Shown here in pieces: positions 3,722-44,489 of a stretch of DNA of 64,000 nucleotides (the first letter of the stretch is position 1; every line of letters starts with the position of its first letter). A model generated the notes under the pieces. The model searched no databases, was not told the DNA's origin, and saw nothing but the letters and a program-made list of their open reading frames with translations. This DNA comes from Pyropia yezoensis (lineage: Eukaryota > Rhodophyta > Bangiophyceae > Bangiales > Bangiaceae). The stretch is from assembly GCA_009829735.1 (NCBI GenBank), contig CM020618.1, forward strand, positions 2,168,882-2,232,881, read 5' to 3'. The position numbers and the translations under genes are program-made.

Positions 3722-5665
3722 CTAGGCATGCATGCTAGACTCTCCAACCCCACGGCCCTCGCCCACACGTAGAGGCGAGCGGCGAGACCCACGGCGATAA
3801 CGCTCCCCACCAGTCGGCGGGGCCGGCGGCTCCAAGTCGGACCCGTCGCGCCCCTCACGGTCGCGCAAGTGGCGACGACCGCGGCTGCTCTTCTGCTTAG
3901 TCTTGCGCGCAAGTTGGCGACGCAGACGCCGGACCGACTCCGACTCTGACGGAGTCGAGGACTCCGAGACGGAGTAAGACAACTCGTCTTCCGACACGGA
4001 GGGAGAGCGCCGCGAGAGTCGGCGACGACGGCGAGGAGGCGAGTATGCCAGGCTCGCACGACGTTTGCCACGCCCAAGTGGGGCTGGCTGGGGCATAATA
4101 GCCCCAATGCGAGCCAACTCGGCCGTCATAAACTCCGCCACCGACTCGCAACTCGCGGTCGCCACTGCAGTACGAACGCGCTCCTCAAGTTGAGGAGTCT
4201 CGGAAGTTTGAAGGGTTGCGGTCGACGCGGCCAACCAGGAAATGGTGCGCACTAACGTGGTGATCATCATCTCTGAGGTTAGAGGCGTGGGCGGTAACAC
4301 CAACTTGGGGTATACAGTCAGGAGGGTGGCCCCCAAGTTGGGGGACACCGGGGTGGACGACTCAGCGGCCACGCTAATCGGGATGTCCCCGTGCGGCTGG
4401 TAGGAGACAGGAGGAAGCGGAGGGGCACGCCGAGGTGGCGGGACCCGGGTGTAACTGCGACCCCGACTTGGGGCCCCCGCAGTGGGTTGAGTCATATGGT
4501 CATCATGGGAGGGCACGGCCATAACTATGGCCTTGTCCGGGGGTGGCGCAGTGTGGCGATCCACCCCCGGGGCATACGGGTAGTCCCCGATGCGCAACCC
4601 CTCTCGTGGGACCACACGGCCGTCGTGAAGTTCACGAGCGACCCATACGAACTGGCGAAGTGCGCCATCGTCCTTGGGCCCACGAGTGGGGCGGCGCAAC
4701 TTGTGCTCTATGCTCTCCCACGCGATAAACTTGTGGAGGCGGAGCATCTCCTCAAGTAGAGTGAGTTGTCCTGATGAGCACCCCTCAGCAACTAGCTGAG
4801 GGGTGAGCTGTTCCAAACCTTGGATAAGCCGGAGGGGGGGATGCCAGAGCATCCCCCGCCGCTGAACACAAGACACCCAGGTCGACATGACCTCGAGGAG
4901 CCACTGGGTGGCCAACATGGCCCACACCAGGTGATCAGGGCCAGCCGTCAACATGACGGAACCGAAGTGGTCAAGAAACCATGGCAGCAACGCCGGGAAC
5001 CCATAGGGGACCTCAACTTGAGGCTACCACTCGGGCTTCCTCGGATAGTACTGCTCCTTACTGGCAGCAGACTGCTGAGGAAACTCAAGTTGAGCCGAGG
5101 TCACCAAGAAGGGACCTCGCCGGAAGTCCTTCTCCATCCGCACATCAAAGTGATGAGTGTGCGGATCGGCCTCGTGAAGGTACGGGGGGCGAGTTGCCAC
5201 CGCGTCCCAAGTAAAGGTCAGCAAGTCGCCGGGACCCGGGATACGATCCCCGCGGTCCACCATGGCCTTGGTCCGCTGTACGTCTTCGACCTCCTCGTCT
5301 TCCAGGAAGGCAAACTGGTCCGTCCTGAAGCCGGCAGGGAACCCGACCCTACGGGGATACTTCTCCCGTAGGCGGTCCCATACCCGACCCATCGCTGCGC
5401 GAAGTCGGCCACAGCGAAGAACAGTCAACCCCTCCTCATAGAGAGGCCAAGCGGGGTAAAACCACTGCCCCAAGGCCTCACGCGGGACAACTAGTCCCGC
5501 CTCCGGGGGAGATCCCGCCGTCAACCCAAAGCCGGGTGACGCGGGAGTCCCATCCCCCGGAGCGATCGCGGAGCCCCCGCCGGAGGTCCCGGCGGGCGCT
5601 GCACCGTAGGAGGCGCCCTCCATACGTTCATCGAGAGAGTCCGTCTCCACCCCCGGGGTCGCCAT
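3722..5665 (-). pseudogene. Antisense extra ORF (aORF) of element C, one in-frame stop
   Basis: A long frame on the strand opposite pol, convergent with it and 111 bp from its end. A plausible start is the ATG at 5665 (MATPGVETDS); the frame is open further upstream to 5851. A TAG at 5024-5026 divides it into two parts in the same phase, and the text continues after the stop (YYPRKPEW, stop, PQVEVPYGFP). Homology to the element B aORF spans the stop: FLVTSAQLEF against FLVSCNHQEF, and VEVPYGFP against VEIPVGFA. A central hydrophobic/Trp-rich domain (about 5010-4690) is followed by a Pro-rich and then a Ser/Arg-rich basic tail. No known enzyme motif is recognised. Function unknown. Confidence 0.65.
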
Positions 5666-5983
5666 GGCTCTCCCCAAGTTGGGGAGAGACGCCCTGGCTA
5701 CAGCGGCAAGAGACCCGCCTCGAGTTGAGGGGGACTCGGATCGTGGGTAGACGGGTGGCCTCCCCCGCGTGGGGCGGCCCAGGGGAAGGTGAAGGGGAGG
5801 TGGTGGGATAGTGAAGTGAGAACCGGGGAGAGCAAGCTGCCGAGTGGGCAAGCTTGAGGTTAGGGGCGGTCAACGTCACCGCCTCCACATCCGCGTTACG
5901 TACTCAAGGGGGGACAGCAAGTCGCGCCCCCAACGCCGAGACGTGCGTTTACGCACCCCCTCACAGGGCCGACCGGGTCGGTC

Positions 5984-6002
5984 GGAACTGAGGAGAGGGG
6001 AG
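5984..6002 (+). promoter_or_regulatory. Polypurine tract of element C
   Basis: A purine-rich run (GAGGAGAGGGGAG with its left extension) lies directly before the 3' LTR, where the plus-strand primer of reverse transcription is expected. Confidence 0.6.
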
Positions 6003-6460
6003 TGTGGCAGTATTGACCCCCAGGTATGGGGGCAACACGTGCCATGTAAGGGGCGGCAGGCCACTAGCCTGATCCGTTCCTCCCCCTGCATTTGGGTCCG
6101 TATTTCCTAAGTTTGGGATAGTTAGCTTAGTAGTAAATCCAACTTGGATTTGAGGGTTTTCTGCATTTATCGTCTTGAATTTTCGTGTGGCCCGGTGGGC
6201 AGGTGCTGGGGTGGGAGATTCTGAGTGGCGAGATTCTGAGGGGACCCTGGGGGGATAAGGGGAGGGACAGCGGGGCTTGGACCTGCGTCCCCGTCCCGAC
6301 CAAGAAACTGTTGGACCACACACCATCCTCTTGTTTGTCAGTGGGGGGTTTGCCCCACAACAGGGACAGAGTGTGTGCGACTTGCACTTCTTCCGGTTCC
6401 CCCGACACGGGATGCAGCCCCTGTACACCGCCCCAACGTGTGTAAGTGGTTTTTGCCACA
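6003..6460 (+). repeat. 3' LTR of element C
   Basis: A 458-bp segment that starts TGTGGCA and ends TGCCACA, a perfect 7-bp terminal inverted repeat of TG...CA type, placed right after the polypurine tract. The 5' partner is outside the window, so the call rests on the ends and the position. The following CCCGC would be the target duplication. Confidence 0.65.
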
Positions 6461-7702
6461 CCCGCTGTTGTCCTACTATACCGCCGCCGACGCGGCGGTG
6501 CCGGACGCGCTCGATGTCGCGGCCGCGGGGCTTGGCGCCGCTCGTGAGTGCCGCGCCGCCCTCGCCGAGGCGATGCGGAAGGGGCAAAAGTCGTAGTGAA
6601 GCATGACACAGAGATCAGTCCACCGCAGCCGCACGTCGCACGACCTTTCCAGAGGTCGATCGGCACGCAGAGCACGCGCTGAGCCGCGGCTCGACTGTCT
6701 CCAACCTCCACGCCAAAATCCCGAGACGTATATCTCGCCAGCTACGCGGACCGCACCCGTCGTCGCACGCCCACTCCTTCTTTCCGGGGTGTGCTGGGCA
6801 GCCCTCGCGAGTCCGCGTCGGCCCTCCCTCCTGTCGCCCTATGCCGGGCGTCGCTGCGGCGGCGTCGTGGCCGCACGTGCGGCCTGGCGCACGATACCCT
6901 GGCGTGCGTGCACCTGAGGTCGCCTCAGCGTCGTGTGCGGGGAGGGGGCCCGGCAGCTTAGCCGGAGGCGGGTCGCTTGCACCCGACTGGCCGCCGTGTC
7001 GACGCGTGGGGGTGCCGACGCCGGGGGCCCGCCGGCCCCACTTGCTGACGCCCTCCCTACCCGCGCTATTTATTTGCCCCTCTGCTCCTTCCTCGTCCCA
7101 GGCCAGGCGCCGGTTACGGCGGAATCGAGCTCCCTGTTCCGCTGCGCCCCCCGCTCCCTCCTGACCGGCGTGCGCGACGTTCGCCCTCCCCCCCCCCCAA
7201 AGTCTGTCGCGAGAGGCCATCGACCGCCATCGCCGCCGCCGCCACCGCCGCCGTTCCCTGCTGGCGCGGCCGCTACCGCTGCGGCGGCCACTCCCGCCTG
7301 TTTTCACCGCCTCCGCCGCCACCACCGCGACCCCCGTCCGCTGTCTGCGCCGTGTCCGCGGCCGCGGCCGCCGCCGTAGCTCTCTCCTGACGCCGCTGCC
7401 GCGGCTCGCTCGTGTGGCTGCTGCCGCCGGCGCCTCCGTCGTTGCTGCTCCTCCCTCTTCCACCCGCCACCCGCCTGTGCGTTTGCCCCCGCCGCCGCCG
7501 CCGCGGCCGCCACCGCCGCCGCCGCCACCGCCGCCGCCGGCCTCGGCTCCGCACTGGTGGCTAGCGCCATCGCGTACGCCGCTGCTGCCGCCGCCACAGC
7601 CACCACCACCGCCGCCGTCACCATCTCGTCGTGCTCCTGCTCGTGGTTTCTCATGTGCGCGCACGGCTTGTGGCTGCGTCACCGATGGCGACGACGGTGT
7701 AG
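6461..7702. other. CG-rich, low-complexity leader region, no supported gene
   Basis: Between the element C LTR and the Fanzor frame. From about 7170 to 7640 it is dominated by CCG/CCA trinucleotide runs that keep several frames open by composition alone. It may hold the promoter and 5' exon of the Fanzor gene, because the Fanzor frame is closed by a TAG at 7700-7702. I see no clear TATA box, splice pair or conserved motif. Confidence 0.5.
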
Positions 7703-9399
7703 CCAGCCGCGGTCGACGCCCGGGACGTGGCTGAGCTCGAGGAAACCGTGCGTGTCAAGCTCTGGTACTCGCGCATGTTGCTGCTTCGCGTGCTGCACGC
7801 GCGTGCGCGGCGCCCGCAGCTGCCCGTGGGCGCCGCGCTGGACGCGACGTTTGCCGGACTGACGGCGGCGGCGGCGGCCGCAGCTGGGGCGCTGCACGAC
7901 GCCGTGCCTTCCACCGGCGGCACAGTGGCGGTCGCGGGCGCCGCCCTGGAGGCGGCCACCACCCTGGCGCTGGCGGACGCGGCTGCGTGGGTGGACGCCT
8001 ACGACCCTGTCGACAACAAACGCCTACTGGCGCAGCGGGCGCGGCGGGCGGCGTCGCTGATTGGGAGCACCTCCCGCGGCATGGCGCGGCGCGTGGCAGT
8101 GGCGGAGGAACGCTGCAGGGCGGCGCCCGACGGCCGCCCCTGCGCCCGCTGCCGCCAGCGGTCGCACAGGACGGGGGCGGCGGTGTGACCGGCCGCCGCG
8201 GTTGGCGGCGACAAGAACGCCCACGCGTACGACCGCGGGGGGGACCCTGCCGCGTCCGACCCTTACGCCTGCCGGGCGACGGTGACGTCGTCGGTAATGG
8301 TGCCCGTGGCGGCGGTGCTGCGTGCGCTGCCCGCGCTCCCGGACGGGACGGCGCACACCGTCCTGCGCGACGAGCTACTTGCGGCCGCGGAGCACCACAC
8401 GCATCTGTCGTTCACGCTGACGCCGGTGTGGCTCAACACTGTTCACTACCTCTTCGGCGACGTCAAGACAGACGGGTGGGCGGCGGCGCGGCCTGCCCCC
8501 GCCCGCTGGGGAGAGTACTGGAACTGGGTGTCGTACGCGGTCTGCTGACGAGGCGCACACGGCGGCAGCCTACCCATCGGCGTGCAGTGCAGATCCTGCG
8601 GGGGGATGCGGGACAACACGCTGTGCGGGCCAGCTGCTGGCCGGCTGCTGGGGTCCTACCCAGCGTTGATGAAGGCCACTGTTCAGGCCATGGACGCCCT
8701 GGCGTCGTTCTTTGACGCCGCGTGCCACAAACACCTGCCGCACCGCAACAGCCGCGCGCGGTGGCGGGGGGTGGTGACTACCACCGTCACCCACACGGCG
8801 CGGACCGTCACGGTCGCGACCCGGCGCTTGGCGTGGCGTGTGGCCACCGCGGTCGTGGACGCTGCCGAGGCCCCCGCATGTGGCGACGAGGGGGGTCGCC
8901 GTCGCGGCGCCGCTGTCTACGCGGCCTCAAAGAGCTGCCTGGAGCGGGGGAGCGACGCCCCGCGCGCGGCGCACGCGGCCAAACTGGAATTCCTGCCCCC
9001 GAAAGTGCGCGCGGCGGCGCTCACGGACATCGCCGACGCGCGGGCGCGGGCGCAGCCAGCGCCCCCGCAGGGCATCGCACGGCTGTTCCCAACAGGCGGA
9101 GCAGACACGGTCGCGCGCCAGTGGGCAGAGTTCATACCGTACTTGCTGCACGTGCAGGCGGAGGGGGTGGTGCGCAAGCCCATCTCGCTCGTGCCAGGCA
9201 AGGCCGCCACACTGCACGAGTATGGCACGGTAACCAAGGCACGCCTGGGCCCACTCATCCGGCGCGCGTGGCCCGCAACCCAACAGGTGTACATGAAGGT
9301 CAGTCGGCGTGGGGCGGCGGCCATTGCGGGGCTACTGGGGATGGAGACGGCGCGGTGCACCGCCGGCGCAGACCTGGGCACCAACGGGGAGGGGGTGGT
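7703..9399 (+). pseudogene. Fanzor-like (eukaryotic TnpB/IS605-OrfB-like) gene, 5' part, interrupted by element A
   Basis: N-terminal portion of a Fanzor-type RNA-guided nuclease homologue. One phase runs from after the TAG at 7700 to the insertion point at 9399; the first ATG in it is at 7775. It contains two TGA codons (8186-8188 and 8546-8548), and reasonable protein text continues after each (for example GGDKNAHAYDRGGD and GGMRDNTLCGP). They may be CGA-to-TGA mutations, sequencing errors or unrecognised introns. The end of this part, GADLGTNGEGVV, matches the region just before RuvC-I in Fanzor proteins and joins in phase to the part beginning at 20127. Assignment rests on the C-terminal half. 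The N-terminal half is Ala/Arg-rich and has no motif I can name. Confidence 0.7.
9395..9399. repeat. Target-site duplication of element A, left copy
   Basis: GTGGT directly left of the LTR. The same five bases follow the right LTR at 20127-20131 (six bases, GGTGGT, if the degraded last LTR base is counted). Confidence 0.85.
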
Positions 9400-9762
9400 T
9401 GTAGCACAATAGGTATCCGCTGCACGTCCACTCTCAGGGAACACTCACCAAGGGGGATCGGCACCAACGTCACCGGGACGCCAAGGTTGCTGTCCTTGGA
9501 GCGCAAGCCACGGGACCAGGATGGGCGCCCAAATGGGAGGGGTTTGTTGTTCTACCTTGGCCGGCGGTGGATTCGCCGCCGGGCCCCTCGTTATAAACCC
9601 TCGGAGACACTACTAACTACCCTCCACCCCAAGATGCAAGTCCCTCTGGTCATACGTAACTTATAGATACCGTGACCAGTACGGACTCCCAAGTTGCAAG
9701 TTAAGGGTTAGAAGTAGCCCCCCTAGTACTAGGGTCACAATACGGACAACCATATTGTTACA
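9400..9762 (-). repeat. 3' LTR of element A
   Basis: 363 bp, starting TGTAGCACAATAGG and ending CATATTGTTACA, matching 19764-20125. On the + strand it contains TATAAA at 9592-9597, pointing toward the antisense ORF; the other LTR has a mutated version (CATACA). Confidence 0.93.
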
Positions 9763-9776
9763 TATCCCCCCCTTAG
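9763..9776 (-). promoter_or_regulatory. Polypurine tract of element A
   Basis: On the minus strand the bases next to the 3' LTR read CTAAGGGGGGGGATA, a purine run in the correct place for plus-strand priming. Confidence 0.65.
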
Positions 9777-10236
9777 ATTCGGCCCGTTCTCGGGTCGAGT
9801 TGCATTCGGGTTACCGAATGTAAGTGGGTCGCGTGACCGTTTACCAGTCGGGTGGGGCTTTGCGCCCTGTCGCGACAGACACCCCTTTTCGAGGTTGTCT
9901 GAGGGGGGTGCCCCCCTTTGTATGGTACACACACGATACGTTTTCCGGACCGATGAATTCCCGATGCGGGTTTCTGTTCACGACCCCCCTTTCCGAGGGG
10001 TGGTACAAGCGGATCCGCAACCAGGCGTCTGGTGGTAGGGGGCCCCGCTCGCGGGACGATTGAGTGGATGGCGGGGGCTGCCCGCGTTGCGTGGCGGCGG
10101 TTGGGGGTGACCCTCCTTGGTTAATCCGTGGGGGGGGGGCGTGGCCCCGATCCAGGTGCCTGGGTGGATCGCCCTCGTAGCTCGGCTGGCGCGGGTCGTC
10201 CCGCGCTGCCGTATCGCTCATGATGAGCTGTGTGGT

Positions 10237-10242
10237 TATAAG
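10237..10242 (+). promoter_or_regulatory. TATA-box candidate for the element A antisense ORF
   Basis: TATAAG about 110 bp upstream of the ATG at 10350, in + orientation. The ATG lies in GCCGCCATGT, close to an ideal Kozak context. Together they suggest that the antisense ORF has its own promoter inside the element. Confidence 0.45.
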
Positions 10243-10349
10243 CGCGGGTGCCCGCGCTTCCCTGGCTCGTCCGCGCGAGCGTTCCTTGTACCGGGTCGAG
10301 CCGGCTGCGGCTTTTTCGCACGGGGCGCCCCTGCTACCCCGGCGCCGCC

Positions 10350-12740
10350 ATGTCGGACCCCCAGGTAGCCGGGGGCAAGGACGACCTCCTGCTTGAGGAG
10401 GAGGAAGAGGTGATGGTGGACGACGTTCCCGTCTCTGCCACCGCCGCCAAGTTCTTCTTGGAGAGCTCGTCGGAGGACGAAGGCGACCAGGTGACCGTTC
10501 GTGTGGCCCCGGAAGGCGCGCCGGGCGGGTTGTCGTCCGTGTGCAGCGGCACGACGGCTCCGTCGGGTGGCGGGCAACCGCGTGTAAGGGCTGCCTCTAC
10601 TCCCACTCCTCCGGCGGCCCGGATGGCTCCTGTCGCCGGTGCCGGCGCGGCTCTACATCAAGACGGCGTCGCCGGTGTGTCGGACGGTCGTGCCAGCACC
10701 CCGGCCGGGACGGCGGGTCAAGACGGCGCGGGTGCCCGCCCGGTTGGTGCGTCCGTGGCGGCGCGTAACGGGTCTAGCCCTGCTACCCCCGTGGTGCCCA
10801 CGTCGGGCCCGGGTGGCGGCGATGCTCTGCCCGCGGTGCCGCGGATGCTTGGTGGTCAAGAAGTGTCTACCCCGATGGCGGTGGACTCCGGGAGCTACTC
10901 CGGGCGGGCGCCCGCCCTTCTTCTTCCTCCTCGGCCGCGTGCGCCTCATGTGCCGGCCCATCTGCCGGTGGGGCTCCCCCCGGCGCCCCCGATTCTTCCT
11001 GGTCCGGCCCAAGTTGCCCCGTTGGGTGGCGGCGTCGCCTTGGCGGCGGGTCAACCCGCCATGTCAATGTATGACTTGGTGGCTCGGGTTCGAGGCTTGA
11101 CTGTGCAGGAGTCCATGGACTCCGCTGGGCGGATGCGGGTGGACTCTCACCAGCCGCGTCACCCTGGAGAGTCCTCCCTGCGCTTCAAGGTGGACCCGAG
11201 TTGGGAGCGGGAGTTGGTGCGGCTGGTCACCCAGCCGCACCAACTCCCGCTCCCAACGCGCTCGGCCCGGGTGGAACATCATTGGATCCTGAGTCAGCCG
11301 GACGACCGGCATGCGCAGCTCTGGCGCACCCGGGTGGGGCGGGCTGAGGTCTACCTCGACTCCGCCTTCGGGATACGCGACTTGATTGCCCCCGCGTTGC
11401 CGCGGGAGGTTGACTACCCGGCTAGTGCTCGGGGGGTTGCGGCGGCGGCGGAGCCGGTAGCGTTTGGGGAGACGGTGGGTGATACCGGCCGGTATCCCGG
11501 GTTCGAGTATTTCCCGGGGGTATCCCCGTATCTGACGTTGACGGCTCCCTACCTGCCTATGGCGGAGTTGAAGTCGGCGTCCAGCTGGCGGCGCAACCAT
11601 GGTGTCAAGGCGGATGCGTTCCGCACCGATATAACGTGTGCGTTGCAGACCGGCAACGGTTGTGCGCCGGTATACACTCCCGTGCGCCCGCCTCTGTGGC
11701 AGGAGGGGTGGGAACCCGCCCCTGCTTTCCGGTTTGACACCGGTTCCTGTCTCCGATACTTCGGGAGTGTGTTGGCCTCCTGGCCGGTCCACCCGTTGCA
11801 GGGTACCTTCACCCTTGAGGTAACCCTCGGGCAGGCTTCCTCCTTCTTGCTGTCCGTCCGCCGGCAGGGGCGCCTGTTTCATCTTCCGACGGGTGTCCGT
11901 CGGCACATCGCGCAGTTGGGCGTGGACCTGATAGCCGCCAAGACCGGGTTGGACCGGGAGTTCGAGGTCCTGCTGGCTGTTCACGATGCCGTGAACTGGG
12001 CTAGGGTGCTAGCCCTTCCCCCGTACCGGGATCCGCAGGCTGGGGCTTCCCCCTTGCCTCGTCACTCGTTGCGTATCGGGCGTACTCAGCCGGGTGAGCC
12101 CAATTGCCATGGGTGGGCGTCCACTGAGGCTGTTGCTGACCTGGGTATTCCCATGGTTATCCATGACCCTCCTCAGGTCCTTGCCCCGTGGTTCGGTAAC
12201 CCGATACCGGCGGCGGTTGGCCGTCGTCCCCGAGAGTGGGGCTCTGCGGGTGGGGAGCGTGAGGTGTCCCGTCGTCGGGCCGAGCCCCGCCGGGTTTACG
12301 GTGGGGCCCCTTCGGTAGGGTCCTACCGGGCCTCGTATCAGGTGCCACCGGCTCCGGTGGTAGCCGTGTCGGCTCCTGTGGCTCCTCTGGCTGCGCCAGT
12401 GTCACCTCCCGCCCCTGTCCTGCATGACGGGTGTCCCCGTCTATGGTACGAGGGCGTTAACGCCCTCATTGCCCGCGAGAGGCGGGGGGGTCCCTCTGTT
12501 AGCTGGGGGGATGTCCCCCCAGGTGCTGCGCGGGTTGGGTCCGCGCGTTGCTTCGGTGGCGTGCTTGACCGCCTCCAGACCGCTCTGGAGGACGTGGAGG
12601 CTGGCCGCAGCACCCTCGTCCAGCTATGCGCCGAGGTAACTCGGGTGATTGACCGTCTTGAGATTGCCGACCGGTGGAGCATGGAGGTATACGCGCTTAC
12701 GCGTGAGTGGCCTCCCTCGGGCAGTGGGTCTACCCACTGA
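10350..12740 (+). CDS. Antisense extra ORF (aORF) of element A, intact, unknown function
   Basis: An uninterrupted 796-codon frame on the strand opposite gag-pol, ending in TGA 450 bp from the pol stop. Start chosen at ATG 10350 for its Kozak context (the frame is open upstream). N-terminus: acidic (LLLEEEEEVMVDD), then Ala/Pro/Gly-rich linker to about residue 240. Residues about 270-560 are more ordered and hold the segment shared with elements B and C: LRYFGSVLA (about 11750), then FLLSVRRQGRLFHLP (about 11850) and a helical region to about 12005. The C-terminus has a Pro/Ala linker and a last ordered stretch (WYEGVNALIARERRG to the end). No zinc finger, transmembrane segment or catalytic motif is recognised. 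Its survival in an element whose pol is broken is notable. Confidence 0.75.
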   Translation: MSDPQVAGGKDDLLLEEEEEVMVDDVPVSATAAKFFLESSSEDEGDQVTVRVAPEGAPGGLSSVCSGTTAPSGGGQPRVRAASTPTPPAARMAPVAGAGAALHQDGVAGVSDGRASTPAGTAGQDGAGARPVGASVAARNGSSPATPVVPTSGPGGGDALPAVPRMLGGQEVSTPMAVDSGSYSGRAPALLLPPRPRAPHVPAHLPVGLPPAPPILPGPAQVAPLGGGVALAAGQPAMSMYDLVARVRGLTVQESMDSAGRMRVDSHQPRHPGESSLRFKVDPSWERELVRLVTQPHQLPLPTRSARVEHHWILSQPDDRHAQLWRTRVGRAEVYLDSAFGIRDLIAPALPREVDYPASARGVAAAAEPVAFGETVGDTGRYPGFEYFPGVSPYLTLTAPYLPMAELKSASSWRRNHGVKADAFRTDITCALQTGNGCAPVYTPVRPPLWQEGWEPAPAFRFDTGSCLRYFGSVLASWPVHPLQGTFTLEVTLGQASSFLLSVRRQGRLFHLPTGVRRHIAQLGVDLIAAKTGLDREFEVLLAVHDAVNWARVLALPPYRDPQAGASPLPRHSLRIGRTQPGEPNCHGWASTEAVADLGIPMVIHDPPQVLAPWFGNPIPAAVGRRPREWGSAGGEREVSRRRAEPRRVYGGAPSVGSYRASYQVPPAPVVAVSAPVAPLAAPVSPPAPVLHDGCPRLWYEGVNALIARERRGGPSVSWGDVPPGAARVGSARCFGGVLDRLQTALEDVEAGRSTLVQLCAEVTRVIDRLEIADRWSMEVYALTREWPPSGSGSTH

Positions 12741-13190
12741 GGGGTGCTATTGTTTGTGAGGGAGAGGGCCACGGTGAACCTTATGGTGGCCGGGTAGTAG
12801 TGAGTATATACTCATCCCCCGCTGGGGCGTTTGCATGATACTAATGCCTGCCATTGGGGTGTACCCCGTCTGACTTAGTCGTGGCTTGCCTTGGTTCTTT
12901 TCCGCCTCCCCCAACCCATCCTGGTTGGTTTAAACTCATGAAGGTCAACCTTCTTGGTCCGTCACTTGCCTCCTGGCTGAAGGTTTACCTTGGTGTAAGC
13001 CTTAGGTTACTTTAAGATTATCGGAGTTAGTCATCTCCTTCAAGTAAACTTGTAAAAGTCAGTCGCTTACTCAGTTTGCCGAAGTCCGCTCCAACTTAGT
13101 GAACCTCAGTCTTGACGAGTCCATGTGACACCCTACTGAGTAGGTATAAGCCTCACCCCCCAACAGCCGAAGTCGGTGTCGGTTGAGTTG
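12741..13190. other. Spacer between convergent aORF and pol of element A
   Basis: 450 bp between two convergent stop codons. No ORF or repeat seen. The likely content is the overlapping 3' ends of the two transcripts; no clear AATAAA on either strand. Confidence 0.5.
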
Positions 13191-16100
13191 TTACAGTAAG
13201 CGTCGTCGCCTCATGTACGGCATGAGGAGTTGGCGGGGTATATTCGCCGCCTGTTCCCAGGTGGGTGAGTCGTATCCGACCCACATCACCTTGATGTACC
13301 AGGGTCCTGGTAGGTCTGGGTCGGTGTGTCCGACCACGCTCTCTACTTGGTATGGAATCCCATCCGGTCCCACCGGGTCATCTGACCGGTGGGTTGTAAG
13401 AGCTTCATGTAGCAACCCAGCCGGTACCGGCTGAGGCTGTTCCGGCTTCGGAGCAGGTGTCACATCATTGAGGTTGATGCGCTGTATCTCCGTATCGCAG
13501 TGCAGGATGACAGAGTGATCATCTATGTGTAAGATCTGGTAGGGTCCTTTGACTGGTTGCATAAGCTTGTTCTCTCGGAACTTCTGGTGTCTGATGTAGA
13601 CCCAGTCACCTGTTACCAGGGTTGCGTTGCGCACCCGTAACCAGGCGTCAAAGTTCTTCTTGTATCGAAGTTGTGTACGGTCAAGGGCACCCTTGAGCTT
13701 GGGTATCATCCACGATAGCTTGGCCAACCAAGCTAAGTGGATTCGTTCGGCCGGTCGGCCCTTCGGTATATCATACCGAGTGCATCTGCCCGGTGGCAGC
13801 GTCAGGTTACCGACGCCCATCGGCATGAGCCATTCCAGGGGGGCAATGGTGGTACTCCGGTGGGGCCTGGCATTGTATGCCAGGGTCAAGACGGACAGAA
13901 GCCTGTCCCACGTCTTCGTGTGTTGCGCCACATAGCATTGGAGCATCTTGACGATGGTGCGGTTGAACCGCTCCACCTGCCCGTTGGACTGCGGGTGGTA
14001 GTCGGATGCCCGACGGGGTTCGATACCGAACATGCCCAGGACCTTAGTGCAGAATGCCGACGTAAGGTTTGCTCCGTTATCGGAGAGGAGTTGCTTCATT
14101 ACTCCGTAAGCACTGATCCAGTGGTCAACCACTGCGTTCATGATCGTGTAGGCCGTATCGTCCGGGATTGCTACTGCCCGTGACAGCTTAGTACAGCGGT
14201 CCGACATGACCAGGATGTACCTGTTCCCTTCTTCCGTTACCGGAAGTGGCCCGAGTATGTCGATAGCGACTTGCTCGTTAGGTCCATCCGGGGGGAACAG
14301 TTTCACAGCGGATGCCCGCCTATGAAGACTCATGCGATTCCGTGCGCACGGGTGGCATCCTCGCACGTGGTCGATTACGCCGACGGCCATTTCTGGCCAG
14401 CAGAAAATCCTTCGCATTGCTGCGCACATGCGCGAACCCCCCGGGTGTCCGGCTGTGGGGTTCTCGTGTTCTCGTTCCATGACGGCCTGCCGTAGGGACA
14501 CGGGAACCACGACCTGATGCCGTCCATCGGCGGGTGCCCGCCGATATATGAGTCCGTCCTCGTTCTCGGAGAAGATGCCGGCCGTGCCGGCCAGGAGGTT
14601 AGCACGATGGCGTTTACAGTCATCGTCATTGGCCTGTGCCTCGGGGAAGTCCGCGAGGGTCACCGGGCACGCAAGGTGTGCCATGGTATGGTCAACCATA
14701 CCTTGGGTAGCATCACCCACCATGCACACCGGTACCACTGGGATGTTTTCGTCCACCTGTCGGGTATCCCCGCTTGGGGTATCGAGTCGCGACAGCGCGT
14801 CCCCCAGATGATGGGTGGAGCCGGCCTTGTATATGGTCCGGTAGTCGTGCTCGGCCATCTTCAGCCTCCACCGCGCTAGCCGACCGTGGCTCTCGGAATC
14901 CTTGTCACCAAGGTTGAGAAGCCATCGTAAAGGTTCGTGGTCGGACCTTACGATGAGCCTGGAACCTTCCAGGTATGGCCGGAGCAGTTGCACTGCCCAT
15001 ATGACTCCGAGGCACTCGCGCTCGGTGGCACTGTAGTTACGCTCAGCCGGGTTGAGAGTCCGGCTGAAGTACCCTACCGGATGTAGGTCCGGGATAGCAT
15101 TATCGGTACCGATGATTGTCTCTCCCTGTAGCAGGGTGCATCCCACTTGGGTGTCGCAGGCGTCGACGTCGATGACGAAGGTCCCGCGTCTATGCGGCAA
15201 CGCAAGCACGGGTGGGGCTAGCAGAGCTTGCTTGAGCAGCTCGAAGGCCTCTCCCTCGCTAGGCGAGGGAGGTTGGAGTACCTTTGGCAAGGCACTGCTC
15301 GTCAGAACCGTTAACGGTTTGGCTATACGAGCGAAGTCCTTGACGAACCGTCGGTATACGTTGCACATCCCCAGGAAGCTTTTCAGCTGTGTCCGGGTGG
15401 TTGGGTATTGCGCATCCCGGAGTGCCCGGGTATTAGCTTCGAGCACTCCCAGTTTACCTGGTGTGATCTGGTGACCCAGATACTAGACTGTCTGCTGGAA
15501 GAAGGCGCACTCCTTGAGGCGCAGGGTTACCCCGGCGTTCCGCAAGAGGGTGAGTACCTCATCGACATGTTGCACATGGTGATCCATGTTACGCGAGAAG
15601 ACGATGACGTCGTCCAAGTACACCAGGCAGTTCCGCCACTTGACTCCCGACAGTGTGATGTCGATGGCCCGTTGGAATGTGGCGTGGGCGTTGGACAGTC
15701 CGAAGGGCATCCTTAGGAACTCGTACACGCCACTGTGACAGACGAACGCCGTTTTGGGGATATCCTCTTCCGCCACTGGGATCTGCCAGTACCCGGCATT
15801 GCAGTCGATAGTGGTAAACACTGTGGCTTCCCCCAGCGATTCGATACACTCGTCCATCCTTGGTAAAGGGTATGAGTCTTTCTTGGTAACCAAGTTGAGG
15901 CGTCGATAATCGATGCAAAACCGAGGGGTCTGATCCTTCTTCGGTACGATAACGACTCGGGCACCCCACTCCGACATCGAAGGTCGGATCACCTTAGCTT
16001 CACTCATCCTCTTCACTTCCCCATCAACGATCTCTCGTTGCATAGGTCCCGCACGATGCGGTTGCGACCGCGCTGGTCGAGCACCTAGTACCAGGTCTAT

Positions 16101-17333: not shown

Positions 17334-19538
17334 TTACCCCAGCGACCCCGTGTCGTCCTTCCTCTTACTCGTTTCCCGTGCTCGGCCGGGTACTATCTTC
17401 CGGGATATCCGGGAGAGGAGGTGCCTCCTCGCCAGCACTCCTCCTGGAGCGTGCTGCCTGTCCGGTGCCGGGCCTCTGGCGGGATTCCCCCCAATGGATG
17501 CCTTGCGTTGCGCCGCTGCCCGTCGAGACTCCTCCGGGATGAGCGGGCATGAGGACACCCAGTGTTGGGGGTCTTCGCACAACATACATCCGGACATGCC
17601 GGCCGTCTCGGGCGTCCGCGTCGGGTTGGCTCCATAGGTCCGGTTGCCTGCCTCGGGCGCCCGAGTGCCCGCCCCTTGGCAGGCCTTGGGTCCCGGTGCC
17701 AACCGGATCATGGACTCCCCCAGCCGGTTGGTTCTACCAGCGATGTGCGGAGGTGTCTCCGGACGTACTGCCCATGGTGGCAGGGGCTGGTGGGGGTTAC
17801 CCGTAACCGGGGCATACCCCGTAGTCCGCACATACGGGACGCGCCGTCCCGCTCCCTCGTTAACCTGGAACTGGGTCCCAGCCGGGGCGATGTACGCTAC
17901 CGTACCATGCTCGTCGATCACCGGCGTCGCCGGTAGCAACAGGTGGCCCTGTTGGTCGACTAGAGGATCGTCCTCACCCGTTGGGGTATGATCGGTCGCC
18001 ACCAGTACTGGTGTTGCCTTACGCTCTACCTTCTCTTGCCTCCGTACCGGGGTAAGACTGGGCTTGCCTCCTTGACGCTTGGGCTTCGGGGCCAAGGCGC
18101 ACTCCGGGTGTAGCACCCGGTAGGCGTCCCCTAGGGACTTGCACATATGCATCAGTCGACTGAAGTTGGTCCGCGCCGTATTGGCTCCCCGCGCGGATAT
18201 CCGCACATAGTTGGGTACTCCTGCGAATAGGATGGCCCGTAGCTCCCCTTCGCCGAGAAGCTTCCCCAGCTCGTAGTCGAGCTCTTGGATCCGGCGTCCA
18301 AACATCTCCTCATACTCCCAAGACTGGGCGGTGGCGGTGCGAAGGGCCCGATAGTGGTCTTCGCACTTGTCCTCACCGAGGTAGCTGCTAAGCAGCTCCT
18401 TCAGTTCACCACGGTAATCCATGGGAGTGGCCGCGACCCTCATTCCCGGCATCGGGGATGCCTGGCGGAGGATACCTCGGACCTGTTCATCCACAAAGAA
18501 CGGGAGGATCTCCAGTGCCAGCCCCTCATTGACGAGTGCCATGTTCGCGGCTGCCTTGAAGCTAATCAAGAAGACAATGACTGCCAACGAGCGTCCGTTA
18601 GGGCCCCCGAACATCGGGACTCCCTTCGTAAGGGTCTGCATAGAGCGGATCGCTCGGTGCGAGGTCGTACGCATCGATTCCGATACGGTAGTGGATCGGT
18701 CCTCCAAACGATAACGTTCGGGAGTCAGTACCGACCTGAAGACTTCGTTGACAATCTCCGTGTCCGCGTCCTGGATATCCAGTCGCTTGGCCAGTTGATG
18801 AGTAAACTCATCGGACTCCATCCGCTTCAGTAAGCTCGCAGTAACCTGCGCTGTCATCGCTTGCACCAGTGACGCTGGAACTTCCTGCGTCGGCGCCTCG
18901 GGTACCCGAGTTGCTTGGGTCCCTTCGTCGATGGGGTACTGCGAGACGGTACCGTCTCCCCCCATCGCCAACTCTGTTCCGGCGTAAGTATCCGCCGGAT
19001 CATGTCCGCGAAGCTTGCTCTGGGTGCTCCGAGCGTAGCGCTTCATGTGGCTACGTTCCAACTCAGCCAACGAGTCGGATCCATAACCCGCCGTGTCCGG
19101 GGGTTGTCCAGGAGTAGCAACACCGGGGTTGACCCTGGTGGACTCCGAAAGTAGTCCGGCCGGTTCGAACCGTACCGGTGTGGGGGGGACCCGACGGGGT
19201 ACCGTCGTATGGAGTGCTGACATCAGCACAGCCACTAGGTCCTCCGTACGCTCTTGACAGGCGTCGAGCCCGGTGAACCGGGCCTCAATGCGAGCCAATG
19301 ATGCCATCAGGGAGTCCCCTGGTGAAGGCGGCGGCGGCGTGAGGTCGGCCGACGGCAGTTGCCGCTGTCCGCCGCCCCCGGCCGTCCGTGCCGTACCAAA
19401 CATCGATCCGGCACCTGACAGCATCGGCGTCTCAATGTTGTCGATCGGGTTACCGATCCCGGTTCCCGGGTTCAGCTCCGGGGTCGGCGTCGACGCCGAT
19501 CCGTCATCTTGAACGTTCCTCGTCTCTTGGGTAGACAT
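17334..19538 (-). CDS. gag: Gag of element A
   Basis: Capsid/nucleocapsid precursor, 734 aa from ATG 19538 (the frame is open to a GTG at 19544). The N-terminus is low complexity. The middle has a retrotransposon-gag-like helical region (around IVFLISFKAAANMALVNEG to LMHMCKSLGDAYRVL). A single CCHC zinc knuckle near the C-terminus, CMLCEDPQHWVSSC (C-x2-C-x4-H-x4-C), would bind RNA. Its stop lies 53 bp before the first supported pol frame, which is in another phase, so pol expression probably needs frameshifting or reinitiation. Confidence 0.85.
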   Translation of the reverse strand: MSTQETRNVQDDGSASTPTPELNPGTGIGNPIDNIETPMLSGAGSMFGTARTAGGGGQRQLPSADLTPPPPSPGDSLMASLARIEARFTGLDACQERTEDLVAVLMSALHTTVPRRVPPTPVRFEPAGLLSESTRVNPGVATPGQPPDTAGYGSDSLAELERSHMKRYARSTQSKLRGHDPADTYAGTELAMGGDGTVSQYPIDEGTQATRVPEAPTQEVPASLVQAMTAQVTASLLKRMESDEFTHQLAKRLDIQDADTEIVNEVFRSVLTPERYRLEDRSTTVSESMRTTSHRAIRSMQTLTKGVPMFGGPNGRSLAVIVFLISFKAAANMALVNEGLALEILPFFVDEQVRGILRQASPMPGMRVAATPMDYRGELKELLSSYLGEDKCEDHYRALRTATAQSWEYEEMFGRRIQELDYELGKLLGEGELRAILFAGVPNYVRISARGANTARTNFSRLMHMCKSLGDAYRVLHPECALAPKPKRQGGKPSLTPVRRQEKVERKATPVLVATDHTPTGEDDPLVDQQGHLLLPATPVIDEHGTVAYIAPAGTQFQVNEGAGRRVPYVRTTGYAPVTGNPHQPLPPWAVRPETPPHIAGRTNRLGESMIRLAPGPKACQGAGTRAPEAGNRTYGANPTRTPETAGMSGCMLCEDPQHWVSSCPLIPEESRRAAAQRKASIGGNPARGPAPDRQHAPGGVLARRHLLSRISRKIVPGRARETSKRKDDTGSLG

Positions 19539-19744
19539 AGTCACAATCAGTCAACCGACATAACAGTCACCACGAATAAGAGAGCGAGGGGGTAGAAGGG
19601 GGAGAGTAACCGTAGATCGCGGTCAAACGCAACCACTCAAAACAATCAAACAGATCGCAGCATCACGAGTACCAGAAAAGGACTGGATCCCAATTCGTGC
19701 GCCAGGGCCGAAGACGGCGTCACCACAAGGGTGACGGAAACCCG

Positions 19745-19762
19745 TCCCCTGCTGCTCCACCA
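19745..19762 (-). promoter_or_regulatory. Primer-binding site of element A
   Basis: Minus strand reads TGGTGGAGCAGCAGGGGA, starting one base after the 5' LTR. It starts with TGG, complementary to tRNA 3'-CCA, and is identical to the element B site. I cannot assign the tRNA from sequence alone. Confidence 0.8.
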
Positions 19763-19763
19763 A

Positions 19764-20125
19764 TGTAGCACAATAGGAATCCGCTGCACGTCCACTCTCA
19801 GCGAACACTCACCAAGAGGGATCGGCACCAACGTCACCGGGAGGCCAAGGTTGCTGTCCTTGGAGCGCAAGCCACGGGACCAAGATGGGAGCCCAAGTGG
19901 GAGGGATTTGTTGTTCTACCTTGGCCGGCGGTGGATTCGCCGCCGGCCCCCTCGTCATACACCCTCGGAGACACTACTAACTACCCTCCACCCCAAGATG
20001 CAAGTCCCTCTGGTCATACGTAACTTATAGATACCGTGACCAGTACGGACTCCCAAGTTGAAAGTTAAGGTTTAGAAGTAGCCCCCCAAATATTAGGGTC
20101 ACAATGCGGTCAACCATATTGCTAC
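19764..20125 (-). repeat. 5' LTR of element A
   Basis: Matches 9400-9762 from TGTAGCACAATAGG to CATATTGCTAC. The terminal A is lost or changed to G at 20126. Confidence 0.93.
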
Positions 20126-20126
20126 G

Positions 20127-20131
20127 GTGGT
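20127..20131. repeat. Target-site duplication of element A, right copy
   Basis: GTGGT, identical to 9395-9399. It is also the codon phase GTG-GT of the Fanzor frame, so the gene continues V-V-F-T-L across the empty site. Confidence 0.85.
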
Positions 20132-22112
20132 CTTTACGCTGACGGGACCGGCGACGGCCGCCGAGGCCGCGGCCGCCTACGTGGCGGAGTCGACGCGCAA
20201 GGCCGACGGCAGCCGCGTGCAGCAGCGGGTGGCGGGGAGCCCCACCACGCAGCTCGAGAAGCAGGGCTTTCCCGTCGCCGCGGTCAAGACCCTCACCGTG
20301 GTGTCGGCAGACCCCGGCAACGCCGCCATCCTGACGGCTGTCTTGTCGGGGCCGACGGCGGCGGCATGGGGCGACCGCCCGTGGGTGCGCTGCCGCCGGC
20401 TGGCGCGGTCGCAGCTGGTGGCGGCGAACGCGCTCACCCGCGCGGCACTGGCGCTGGACGCCGTCGTGTGGCGGACGGCCTCGCTGGCGCCCGCGGAAGC
20501 GGCTGCTGCGGGCGCGGCGGCGGCGGCAGCGGCCGGGGCGCGTCCAGGCGCCCTTCCCCCGACGCCGGGGCGGAAGAAGCGCAAGGCGGGCCCTGGCGGT
20601 GCCGAGCAACGGCAGATGCCGTGCGGCAAGGCGGCAATGTCGGGACCGCCAAGCCGGGACGCCGCCGGCGAGACCGCTGCGAACGCGTCACCGGCGCGCC
20701 CGCCGTCTGCGAGAACCGTGCGGGGGCCGGCAGCCTCTCTCCGCCGTGGCGCTATGCGGCGGCTGCAGGCCGCGGCGCAGTGCCTGGTGGCGGCCACCGG
20801 CAACGGCCGGTGGCAAATGCCGCGTCACGCGGCCGTGAACGTGGCACTCGGCTGCCTGCGCCGGGCAGCCGCCGGCTGGGTCCGGCCGCTCGTGGGAGAC
20901 GGGCGCCCCGACGGCGCCGCGTACGCGGCGTCCAAGACGGCGGCGGTGGCGCAGGACGTGGCCACCGCCGGCGCGTTTGCTTCAGCCCTGGACGGCCTGA
21001 CGGTGCGCGTGCCACACGCGGTGAGAGCGACGCGGGCTTGGCACGCGCCCCCCCCCGCGGGCGCCGTGTACACCCCGACGAAAGGCCGCTACACCGAAGC
21101 TGCAGGCAACGGCATGACGTCGCGGGCGGCGACGGCGCACCGGCGGGAGGCGGCGCAGGGGCTGAGCGCGCTGCGACCGCCGCCGGCCACCACCCCCGAG
21201 TCGGTGGCCGCCCACGAAACGGTGCGGACGGGCGACGCTGCGGCGGTGCTGGCGTCCAGCCGCCAGTGGATGGAGTCCCGGCGCCAGTCGCGGTACAGAG
21301 TCGCGTGGGGGGACGCGGCGACGGCGGGCCAGCGCAAGGCGCGGGTGCACCAAGTCATCCAGCGGCGGCGGCTGGACGAGGCCGTTGCGCGGGAGCTGAC
21401 GGGCGGCCGCCTCCGCCGCGTCGTCAACCGCTCGGCGGTGGTGCCAGTGGTCGGGCAGGCGGCCACACAGGGGGGCGCTACGTGGCTCCGGCGCCACCTG
21501 CGCCGGCTGTGCTGGATAGTGAACGCGGACGAGCACAACTCCAGCCAGGCGTGCGCCGGCTGTCGGCACCAGCTGGCGATTGTATACGCATCGGCGGCGT
21601 CGCCGCCGTGCGTGCCCCGCGGCACCATGATCAGTGGACGGCGGGGAGGCAGCCGTGGACGGCAGGGGCCGCCGCGAGCGCCGCCGACGGCTGGTTGGGA
21701 GCGCACGCAGCCGGTGTGCTCCGCGACAGGGCGGGCGGCCTGCCGCACAGAGGGCGCCAAGCTAGCGGCGGAGCGGGCGGCCAAGCACGCACCCCCGACA
21801 GGGGTGGTTTTTCGTGCTCCCGCCGCCGCGGGCGTGTGGGGCGTCAAGCGCTGCGTGGAGCGGACGTGCCCCCAGATGCTGGTCATCCGAGACGTCAACG
21901 CAGCGGCCAACATGGGGTGGAAAGCGCTGCAGCAGATACGGCAGCTGCCGTGCCACCCTTTTGTACGTCCGCAACAAGTGCGACGGCCACGCCCGGGAGG
22001 AGGTAATGGGCGGGAGGCGGACACAGCCCCGACGGACACCCTGGGTACGGCAGAGTCGGGAGACGGGCGGCCAGCGGCGGCGGGCGGCGGCGCGGTGGCA
22101 TCCACGGCATGA
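20127..22112 (+). pseudogene. Fanzor-like gene, 3' part with RuvC and zinc-finger motifs
   Basis: 660 codons to TGA at 22110 in one uninterrupted frame. Motifs: RuvC-I SADPGNAAILTAV (Asp codon 20310-20312); a basic nuclear-localisation-like GRKKRKAG (about 20570) inside an Ala/Arg-rich insertion; RuvC-II region IVNADEHNSSQACAGC with Asp-Glu at 21528-21533 and CxxC at 21552-21563, resembling the D-E-x-x-T/S-S-K-x-C-x-x-C signature of Fanzor; and RuvC-III RDVNAAANM (Asp codon 21891-21893) preceded by a second Cys pair. Fanzors are known RNA-guided DNA nucleases related to TnpB. Here the gene is long (about 1,200 codons in total) because of low-complexity insertions. The catalytic residues look intact, but the gene is cut by element A. 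Confidence 0.85.
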
Positions 22113-27114: not shown

Positions 27115-27119
27115 GGTCC
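27115..27119. repeat. Target-site duplication of element B, left copy
   Basis: GGTCC directly left of the first LTR, matching 45061-45065. Only one pair encloses both tandem copies. Confidence 0.85.
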
Positions 27120-27689
27120 TGTGGTATAAAACTCGATCCTTTCAGACACGTGTCAATATCCCTCGGGGAAAGGGACAGGTAACACAGAAAGGGGAACTAC
27201 GAGAATGGTATGCCTGTTGCCTCACGTGCCTGCTCGCAGAGCAAACAGATACGCACGGTAGTGCACACGGGGAAGAGGAAAGCAAACGCGCAGTTGTCTT
27301 TTTCCTGAGGGCGCGGGCCAAGGGCGCCTCGCTGTCCCTCTTAACGTGCATCTGGGGGAGCCTCGGCACGTTGGCCAGGTAGCCCCCCCATAACCCCGAG
27401 TGGCCCCGACCCGAGTCTAACCTCGTCAGGTCGGGGGCCACTATCACTACTAATTCTATTCCCACTCACTAATCTCACACTCAAATTCTCTCAAATCAAG
27501 TCCCTCACAAGTATGCAAAAACCCATCAGCAATCCCTCTCTCACGTGTGGATAGCGTAGTCCACCGCATCCCAGTGCCGGGCACGGGCCACGGCCGCCAA
27601 CCATCACCACACGGCGGGCGTGTTCTGGCACCTGGTGCCCTCTGGTTGTAGTCCCGGGTCGGCGCCAAGTCGGGGCCAGGGATGCTACA
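27120..27689 (-). repeat. LTR 1 of element B
   Basis: 570 bp, TGTGGTATAAAACTCG to GATGCTACA. It matches 44490-45060 with about six visible differences. TATAAA at the left end points along the + strand, toward the antisense ORF. Confidence 0.93.
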
Positions 27690-27704
27690 TAGCTCCCTCC
27701 CTAG
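27690..27704 (-). promoter_or_regulatory. Polypurine tract of element B copy 1
   Basis: Minus strand reads CTAGGGAGGGAGCTA immediately inside the 3' LTR. Confidence 0.6.
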
Positions 27705-27873
27705 TCCGGCACGTCCTCGGGCCGAGCCAGGTGCCACCGTGCACAGTCTCGAGCACGTCCACACCGGTGCCGAGGTCGAGCGTCTTCACCCTGGTCACGA
27801 TCACCTGCTCCGGTTCTCTGCCCCCCTTCTCTCCTTCACCTTGGCCCTCGCGTTTCCCCGGAGTCTGGACGTC

Positions 27874-29992
27874 ATGTCTAGTTCCGAGATCCAAGCTGGG
27901 CCCGTGGTTCCGGCGGCGAGTGTTGCGGAGGAGAACTCGGGTAGTCGCGCCCCTCTCCTGCCTCCGGTTCCTAGGGTGTCGATGTCGGCGCCGGTCGCCA
28001 CGGCGGGGACGGATCGGGTTCCCCCGGCTTCTGTGATGCACCCGGTCGAGACCCCCCCGGTGGGTCTCCCGGAGATGCTTCTTGGGCAGGACCCTCTGGC
28101 GGCCCGGCGTTACTCCACGGTGGTCGGCAACGCCGGCGCGGCCCAGTGCCAGCAGGATTGCTTGGACCTCTGGCGCAAGGAACTCCAGCGCGGGGTCCTG
28201 ACCGAGATGGATAAGGCTCGTCTTCACACGGCGGACCAGATGCGCCTGGCACAAGACCGCTCCCAGAGCTTCTCGGGTTCCTCTTGGGTTGCTCGTCTGG
28301 AGGATCTCCCCATCGCGCTGGTGCTGGATCTACCCTTGACCGAGCGTCGCGTGTCCGCGTCCGTTCTCCGGTGGCCGGAGGAGGAAGGGTACGTCCACCG
28401 GGCGCTCAAGGTCTGGGACGAGGCGCTCAAGGGGTCGGGGAGCCTGAACTGCGACCCCCGTCCGAGCATGGTCGCTCTGAAGCCGCCGCGTCCTGACCCG
28501 GAAGTACTCCAAGTTGTCACCGGCACGGGAGCAAGGCGAGCGACGCGGCCGTCAGCGTGACTTCCTCGTGAGCTGCAACCATCAGGAGTTCTGGAAGCTG
28601 GATAAGGCTAACCGGGCGGCGTACTACCCCAAGGTCATCCCGCAGCAGCAGGAAGTCGAGATCCCGGTCGGGTTTGCTCCTTCCAGCATCCCGTTCACCT
28701 GGTACTTCTTGGACGCCTTGACTCAGGCGTCGATCAAGGGCTTCTTCCACTCGATCCCGTACATGATGTACACGTCCGAGATGACAGTCTTGGCGGCCAA
28801 CCACTGGCTTCACGAGGTCTTGGTGTCCAACCGGCTTTGGTTTCTCCCTGACCTCCTGATGGTCTGGATTGTCGACAAGTTGACCGTCGACTTCCTGTGC
28901 AGCCAGGACGAAGAGTACAAGGGGCTTTTCCAGGCGATGATTGACTTCCGGCGTCTGGTGCCGGTGCATGACCGGAACTTCTTGAACGCGATTGCCGACC
29001 ACAACCGCCCGCGTCGGGATGGCTTCGGTTGGGTGCAGGTGGTCTACCAGTCTTCTCCGGCCAAGGTGCAGCTGGCGACGCCGCTTCCGGCGTGGCCGCA
29101 GCTAGGTAGCTTTCCTGCCCCGGCCGCCCTTGATCTTCTGCCAGTTGGGCCGCCGGTGCAGGAGTCGGGATGGGCCGCGGCGGTCGGTCGGGCGTCTGCG
29201 GCGGCTCCGCTTCCTCCTGTTGCACCTGTCGCCCCGGTGGCCTCGCCTGAACCGTTGCCGGCGCGTTCACGCCCTGTTCCGGCTGTGCCGGTACTTCAAG
29301 CTCCTCCGGCACCGCGCCTGTCTGCGGCGAGTCTGGGGGTGACCGTGCGGTCGCCTACCACTCCGGCCGCTCCGCCTCGGACGCCTTCTTCCAACGCCGG
29401 CGGCGCTGTGCCTCCGCTGGAGTTGGGTACTCCGGCTTCGGGGGCCGTTGTGGACCGTCCGGTGGTGTCATCCTCGGGGCGGTTCGAGATTCCGGCGCCT
29501 ACTCTGCGCCTTACCCGCTTCCGGGTGCCTGACTGGTACCTGAACCAAGGTGGCCCGACATGCGACCAGTACGACGTCGGTATGATTGAAGACCAGCTGG
29601 GTCGTCTTCCGGTGCAGGTTGAGGGCGTCGGGTCTTCCCTGGTGCTGGGCACTTACGCCAGCGTCTTGAACAACGTGGTTGACCGGGTGTTTGCTTGCGC
29701 GGACAGCGGCCAGATGTCGAACAGCCCGGTGGTTGGCGAACTTCTGGCGACCTTGACGCGGCATGGCTTGGCCCAGCAGTGGTCAGAAACCTTCACTGGC
29801 TTCCAGGGGCGCCGACGGGCATATCTGGATGAGCGGGAGCCCCCGGCAACTACCGGTACTACTCCGATGGCGTCATACCGGGATGCACCGCGTCCACCGC
29901 ACTACGTCATCCCGTCTTCCTCCGGTTCCCGTCGTGCCGCGGAGGCAGCGCTGGAGGACACTCCCGCGGCTCAGCGTCCGCGCCGGGAGTAG
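27874..29992 (+). pseudogene. Antisense extra ORF (aORF) of element B, copy 1, one frameshift
   Basis: From ATG 27874 (MSSSEIQAGPVV) to the stop at 29990-29992, on the strand opposite gag-pol and 145 bp from the pol stop. The phase changes once, near 28527, beside a GGG run. After the shift: FLVSCNHQEFW, AAYYPKVIPQQQEVEIPVGF, WYFLDALTQ and WLHEVLVSNRLWFLP, matching the element C aORF position by position, and more weakly element A. A Pro/Ala/Val-rich linker follows (about 29060-29510), then an ordered C-terminal part (RFRVPDWYLNQGG to about 29800). No catalytic motif recognised. The frameshift may be a sequencing error. Confidence 0.7.
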
Positions 29993-36192: not shown

Positions 36193-36196
36193 AATA

Positions 36197-44485: not shown

Positions 44486-44489
44486 AATA

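Follow-up and report, generated by a model that had tools for sequence, protein, structure and literature searches.

An antisense accessory gene between pol and the 3′ LTR in one Ty3/gypsy clade of the red alga Pyropia yezoensis

Why retrotransposons with long terminal repeats (LTRs) keep antisense genes is a question for which a 64,000-nucleotide stretch of the Pyropia yezoensis genome (GCA_009829735.1, contig CM020618.1, positions 2,168,882 to 2,232,881; hereafter, the window) offers a red-algal case, with three families in one genome and a defined conserved core. Three elements in the window, A, B, and C, have reverse transcriptase, RNase H, and then integrase in pol and are flanked by LTRs, as is typical of Ty3/gypsy elements (Metaviridae). 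In each, an additional open reading frame (ORF) running antisense to gag-pol separates pol from the 3′ LTR, which is the position of the class aORF-3R. This antisense ORF (aORF) is convergent with pol across spacers of 450 bp in A, 145 bp in B, and 111 bp in C; the ORFs, strands, and spacers were already given in an original prediction made from the window alone, and its coordinates hold. Is the aORF a gene, is it the same gene in the three elements, and what might its product do? The present analysis shows that the aORF evolves as a protein-coding sequence in the antisense frame and travels with pol within each family. In one Ty3/gypsy clade of the P. yezoensis genome, it is a genuine accessory gene.

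Selection, homology, and linkage of the antisense frame

Selection was measured in copies picked via pol, blind to the aORF, by taking every fifth row from the top 40 DNA matches for each pol end (eight rows for B, eight for C, and four of eight for A) and adding the window copy to each set. With the rearranged, truncated, or N-filled copies excluded (L043, one of eight in B; L050, which has an N gap, and L053, two of eight in C; L062, one of four in A), the ratio of nonsynonymous to synonymous substitution rates (dN/dS) was 0.319 for B (n = 8; 95% bootstrap interval, 0.214–0.439), 0.336 for C (n = 7; 0.260–0.442), and 0.449 for A (n = 4; 0.361–0.540), while the pol ends, measured likewise, gave 0.41 in B, 0.24 in C, and 0.29 in A. 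Sets still holding rearranged copies gave higher values, which were 0.80 for B and 0.71 for C with L043 and L053, and 0.77 for A with L062. Thirty A loci ranked by aORF score gave 0.381, and B copies ranked in the same way gave 0.27, a biased figure compared with the pol-chosen 0.32. The dN/dS check proposed along with the original prediction did not refute it, as 0.32–0.45 in pol-chosen copies is not near 1.

The constraint is specific to the antisense frame. Four of the five other frames showed dN/dS of 0.94–1.52 in B and C and 1.06–1.25 in A. The fifth, a sense-strand frame, also had low values (0.34–0.58) because its third codon position is common with that of the aORF frame, and it cannot be coding, since each sense-strand frame across the aORF contains 5–23 stops. 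Variants common to several copies had ratios of 0.215 in A, 0.118 in B, and 0.173 in C, with zero stops in the aORF frame, and single-copy variants were nearer neutral (0.65, 0.49, and 0.42, respectively). The lowest windowed ratios in A and C were found inside or beside the conserved core.

As judged by sequence comparison, the three aORF proteins are homologous, with C as the link. B and C matched in blastp at E 5e-8 with the window copies and 7e-9 with intact copies (BLOSUM45), and A and C at 4e-5 with the window copies, at 9e-7 in a further comparison, and at 2e-8 with window A against intact C. In shuffle tests of two kinds, neither the C–B nor the C–A score was reached by any of 1000 shuffles. 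When C was searched against the 419 open frames of the window, the aORFs included, A (1.8e-5) and B (6.4e-5) were followed by a next match at E 2.8. Whole-protein family profiles connected B with C (2.5e-5) and A with C (1.3e-3), and their A–B match was confined to a low-complexity stretch. Among domain profiles, A+B matched C at 9.6e-8, C+A matched B at 2.1e-5, and C+B matched A at 3.8e-4, whereas A against B alone gave 0.27. Column-shuffled decoys, 100 for each of two profile pairs, scored at most 26.7 against the real 34.7 for C+B with A, and at most 22.2 against the real 43.0 for C+A with B. The kinship of A and B is deduced from the match of both to C; a weak likeness of their C-terminal parts (E 0.033) is noted here and not claimed. 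The original prediction had regarded the three proteins as alignable with one another. This was borne out for C with A and C with B, and the similarity was significant in the profile comparison of the three, but the direct similarity of A to B was not significant, as described below.

The aORF is found where its family's pol is found. Colinear aORFs accompanied pol in seven of eight pol-chosen B loci (one of the seven partly N; L043 has an internal deletion), in six of eight C loci (L050 retains part of the aORF and L053 none), and in three of four A loci. Conversely, among 30 A loci found through the aORF, 29 had the A pol end and all had an LTR. Presence in most copies and conservation like that of gag-pol, two further marks of the aORF-3R class, were seen in these small samples. 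One locus, L027, is a truncated copy. Across 30 A loci, the non-coding stretches diverged to unequal degrees: the LTR-proximal 290 bp of the leader, 3.0–3.6%, the least of those measured; the LTR, 5.1%; the rest of the leader, 6.5–6.8%; and the spacer between the aORF and pol, 11.8%, the highest. Such a contrast would be expected if the leader contained signals and the convergent spacer did not. In B, the convergent spacer showed no unusual RNA folding (z 0.31).

Although the window B aORF is frameshifted between its two parts (Table 1) and the window C aORF has one in-frame stop near 5024, intact copies of both occur elsewhere in the genome (107.5 Mb, 11 contigs), and the intact proteins measure 789 aa in A, 705 aa in B, and 647 aa in C from the first ATG. 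Among the 87 B places listed, counted by hand, 49 had a 779-aa frame, 76 had no stop inside the match, and 41 had both; among the 54 A places, likewise counted by hand, 30 had no stop, 21 of them with an 825-aa frame; and 724 aa was a frequent frame length among the C places listed. These lists hold only the best copies, dominated by the query's own family, and are not random samples because they were ranked by protein score. A first look at the genome gave 1177 candidates for B and 2715 for C, with 2124 candidates for the A domain. Most of the best 150 places listed for that domain (window 11679–12107) had the same score of 303.8 bits with differing frame lengths, many of 825–990 aa, a pattern suggestive of subfamilies that have identical domains and expanded in recent bursts. 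A tandem array of 3489-bp units, each composed of an LTR and an aORF without pol, occupies L056:1–8001. It was considered as a non-autonomous aORF element, and this idea was dropped because the junction agrees with insertion of an LTR into a different A copy and subsequent recombination; the array is likely the product of such a nested insertion plus recombination.

The pol lineage and its antisense gene among known systems

The pols of A, B, and C form one clade. Their integrases are 57% identical between B and C and 47% between B and A, compared with 33–35% to those of L058–L060, three loci with canonical chromodomains. In the integrase tree, which covers all three elements (the reverse transcriptase tree excludes A because of a stop in its reverse transcriptase piece), A, B, and C are set apart from L058–L060 with 100% support, while the order within them has 57%. 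A single primer-binding site sequence is common to the three. No aORF homologue was detected within 1.9 to 2.2 kb beyond pol in L058–L060 (best tblastn E 0.24), a comparison that covers two families, since L059 is nearly identical to L060. Chromodomain matches elsewhere in the genome include several pairs spaced 6.2–6.7 kb apart, versus 8.3 kb for the B unit, and this shorter spacing would leave less room for such a gene. The term chromovirus, applied to A, B, and C in the original prediction, proved generous: against a Pfam Chromo cut-off of 25.1 bits, B scored 24.7 and C 19.9, and A had no match at E ≤ 1, whereas the three aORF-less loci scored 60–67 bits. LTR elements are reported to predominate among the repeats that make up 48.0% of the P. 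yezoensis genome (PMC7423979).

Searches for relatives of the aORF proteins gave no Pfam match at E ≤ 10 and no relative in NCBIfam, in collections that hold hardly any eukaryotes. The best PHROGs match had E 0.25, 67 pattern matches in viral contigs yielded no confirmed one, and PDB sequences gave single-query matches of E 0.1 or worse and none in a profile search. Comparison with the elements' own gag was not convincing, as the best profile match, at E 0.016, fell within a stretch rich in arginine and serine. The CCHC pattern of a zinc knuckle was absent, and the hydropathy profile revealed no membrane segment (top 19-residue value, 1.23–1.54). The aORF is therefore not env-like, because env-like ORFs lie on the sense strand and have a transmembrane segment. 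The product has proline-rich flanks. Searches of open-access papers on red-algal LTR elements with antisense genes or on chromoviruses (including PMC12477816 and PMC8752119) turned up no such gene.

The original prediction also compared the place and strand of the aORF with those of antisense ORFs in the plant elements Grande and Retand, and this comparison holds for the conserved ORF in all three families. In flowering plants, antisense ORFs with the TRP28 domain (PF04195) are reported from nearly all clusters of the Retand lineage, and a regulatory role has been proposed and DNA binding predicted for their product (PMC11963269). Like these ORFs, the algal aORF occupies the interval between pol and the 3′ LTR and is convergent with pol. 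Unlike them, it belongs to elements in which PF04195 was not detected, and whereas Retand belongs to flowering plants and falls outside the chromoviruses, the host here is a red alga, and B and C have weak chromodomain matches. The speculation that the aORF is distantly related to PF04195 was not upheld: the model did not match the aORF proteins; it had no match at E ≤ 10 in the whole genome, a weak negative because the loose first look gave zero candidates; and the ungapped spacing of the plant positions G21, P25, L34, P46, N47, and F55 (as given in PMC11963269) misfits the red-algal core by eye.

Grande gene23 of maize is described as an antisense gene with its own promoter and a nuclear protein, and it and the antisense ORF of rice RIRE2 resemble the algal aORF as antisense genes beyond pol (PMC7264820). 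The likeness is one of place and strand. The antisense ORFs of PvRetro13 (bean) and Boty (Botrytis) are also similar in position and strand; Boty, compared by position only, shows the antisense layout outside plants, and ORF2 of PvRetro13 is reported with an SMC domain, none of which was recognized in the algal aORF (PMC7264820). HBZ of HTLV, a nuclear regulator whose transcript runs antisense to an LTR element (PMC11963269), serves as a working analogy only, since host and virus family differ. The same review that describes Grande calls the function of antisense genes in LTR elements unknown (PMC7264820). What we describe is thus of a known kind, an antisense accessory ORF of Ty3/gypsy elements in plants and a fungus, and the novelty lies in the protein, in the lineage of its host, and in the selection measured on it. 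By analogy, the best reading is that the algal aORF works like the Grande and Retand antisense genes but is a different protein.

Possible role of the aORF product

The explanation that we consider best as a whole, with a probability of roughly 55%, is that the aORF is an accessory gene with separate antisense transcription and a nuclear, trans-acting product. Transcription would run towards pol, with its promoter lying either within the 3′ LTR or in the adjacent conserved leader. The product might be a trans-acting nuclear factor in the cycle of the element itself, at transcription, RNA export, or nuclear entry, a role also proposed for the antisense products of Grande and Retand; this step is the weaker of the two and is suggested because Grande has an antisense gene with its own promoter and a nuclear protein and Retand one with predicted DNA binding. 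Some retroviral accessory proteins act in trans in the nucleus on the cycle of their element. Several observations weigh against this explanation. Conservation of the leader could be due to the purine tract or to RNA ends and not to a promoter, and an arginine-rich tail, which would suit the nuclear step, occurs in C only. AlphaFold2 models, mostly helical, had a mean pLDDT of 34.5 for a 331-aa crop and 49.1 for the 126-aa core and are too poor to support any fold. The unity of the three proteins has its weak points as well: direct A–B similarity was not significant, its score being reached by 171 and 198 of 1000 shuffles; among the window frames, the B query found only a C piece at E 0.22 and the A query did not list C at E ≤ 10, in searches on which the splitting of window C by its stop bears; and full-length phmmer was weak (best stretch C–A 4.6e-6, C–B about 0.006).

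The main rival, unlikely in our judgment yet the most serious of the alternatives, is counter-silencing, in which the product would not be Tat- or Rev-like but would bind element DNA or host silencing proteins and keep the family expressed. Such elements are known to be under pressure from host silencing, the families are large as the candidate counts indicate, and the lack of a recognized enzyme domain in the product would agree with such a role; nothing found is specific to silencing, however, and no DNA-binding or chromatin domain was recognized. Still less probable is a second structural or integration protein (part of the particle, a variant of the capsid, or a partner of integrase) that happens to be expressed from the opposite strand. 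It would explain why the ORF is kept beside gag-pol in all three families under selection about as strong as that on the pol ends, but the comparison with gag was unconvincing (E 0.016), and neither a zinc knuckle nor a membrane segment was found.

Two further rivals give the protein no part. The antisense RNA alone might matter, through self-limitation by double-stranded RNA or interference, with the long frame being incidental. Such roles are discussed for other elements (PMC7264820), and the convergent layout would yield overlapping RNAs, but this idea, which we regard as highly improbable, is already disfavored because all three elements show selection on the amino-acid frame and the homology is at the protein level. 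A chance open frame deserves mention because the aORF regions have a GC content of 58–69%, at which the longest frames in first-order Markov simulations (500 per region, 1500 in all) averaged 205–239 aa. The longest simulated frames per region, however, were 521, 458, and 573 aa, so that none of the 1500 exceeded 573 aa, and the intact proteins, at 789, 705, and 647 aa, are longer; together with the stops in each sense-strand frame and the frame-specific dN/dS, this refutes chance.

The nuclear, trans-acting accessory gene remains our preferred explanation, and its origin can be considered as follows. At slightly less than even odds, a red-algal Ty3/gypsy lineage gained its own antisense accessory gene before A, B, and C split, unrelated to the TRP28 and Grande genes, and the gene was kept by selection. 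If this is true, antisense accessory genes arose repeatedly in LTR elements, which would suggest that a second transcription unit, convergent with the first and making a trans-acting regulator, is of general advantage. Comparison with the plant elements could show which aspects are general, such as the presence of an antisense unit after pol, and which, such as the protein itself, are particular to one case. Work on transcription, localization, and small RNAs is feasible because the genome is small, assembled to chromosome level, and rich in copies.

Element anatomy and other features of the window

The features of A, B, and C are collected in Table 1. A purine-rich tract on the sense strand adjoins the 3′ LTR, and the aORF, sitting between pol and this tract, is therefore copied at each transposition.

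Table 1 Features of elements A, B, and C (positions in the window; a dot marks a feature without strand)
Feature	Position	Strand	Remarks
C pol	36–3610	+	Several frames; 2192–3610, integrase and weak chromodomain; pol end 3610
C aORF part 2	3722–4990	-	Same frame as part 1; ORF list, dN/dS
C conserved core	4688–5086	-	Common to A and B; spans the stop of the window copy
C aORF part 1	5024–5851	-	Conserved-frame ATG about 5665; terminates at in-frame stop
C 3′ LTR	6002–6461	+	94.1% identity to 5′ LTR at L061:1510–1980, outside the window
A 3′ LTR	9400–9762	-	Element sense strand is minus
A leader	9763–10349	+	3′ LTR to aORF ATG; divergence among 30 loci
A aORF	10248–12740	+	830 aa; first ATG of conserved frame about 10350
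A conserved core	11634–12047	+	Common to C; alignments
A spacer	12741–13190	.	Convergent aORF to pol; divergence among 30 loci
A pol	13191–16892	-	Frames 13191–15446 and 15483–16892; aORF-facing pol end 13191
A gag	17334–19544	-	Weak zinc-knuckle match; profile match to B gag E 4e-11
A primer-binding site	19746–19763	-	Common to A, B, and C
A 5′ LTR	19764–20126	-	94.8% identity to A 3′ LTR
B 3′ LTR	27120–27689	-	LTR comparison
B aORF part 1	27682–28560	+	Frameshifted window copy; conserved-frame ATG about 27874
B aORF part 2	28514–29992	+	Holds conserved core; ORF list, dN/dS
B conserved core	28586–28963	+	Common to C; alignments
B pol	30138–34097	-	Single 1319-aa frame; aORF-facing pol end 30138
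Second B copy, partial aORF	36824–37836	+	Adjoins 500-N gap 36324–36823
B primer-binding site	44469–44486	-	Common to A, B, and C
B 5′ LTR	44490–45060	-	98.9% identity to B 3′ LTR

Two B internal regions, 8.3 kb apart and 99.7% identical, lie within 28530–44617, and the 500-N gap falls where one LTR, along with the beginning of the second B aORF, would be expected. The pair is either a tandem element with a common LTR or an assembly collapse. Element A is flanked by 8582–9412 and 20127–22112 (+), which look by eye like the halves of an interrupted TnpB/Fanzor-like gene; the only Pfam match of the second half was Cas12f1-like_TNB at E 0.19, below the cut-off, and the first half had none.

Two other ORFs, 51646–52338 and 54980–56194 (-), have several stretches in common by eye, and neither had a Pfam match at E ≤ 0.5. 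Ahead of the latter lies a proline-rich ORF that contains tandem repeats of 126 bp. The ORF at 48803–50080 (+), with a weak Phage_int_SAM_1 match (E 0.075, below the cut-off), possibly encodes a tyrosine recombinase.

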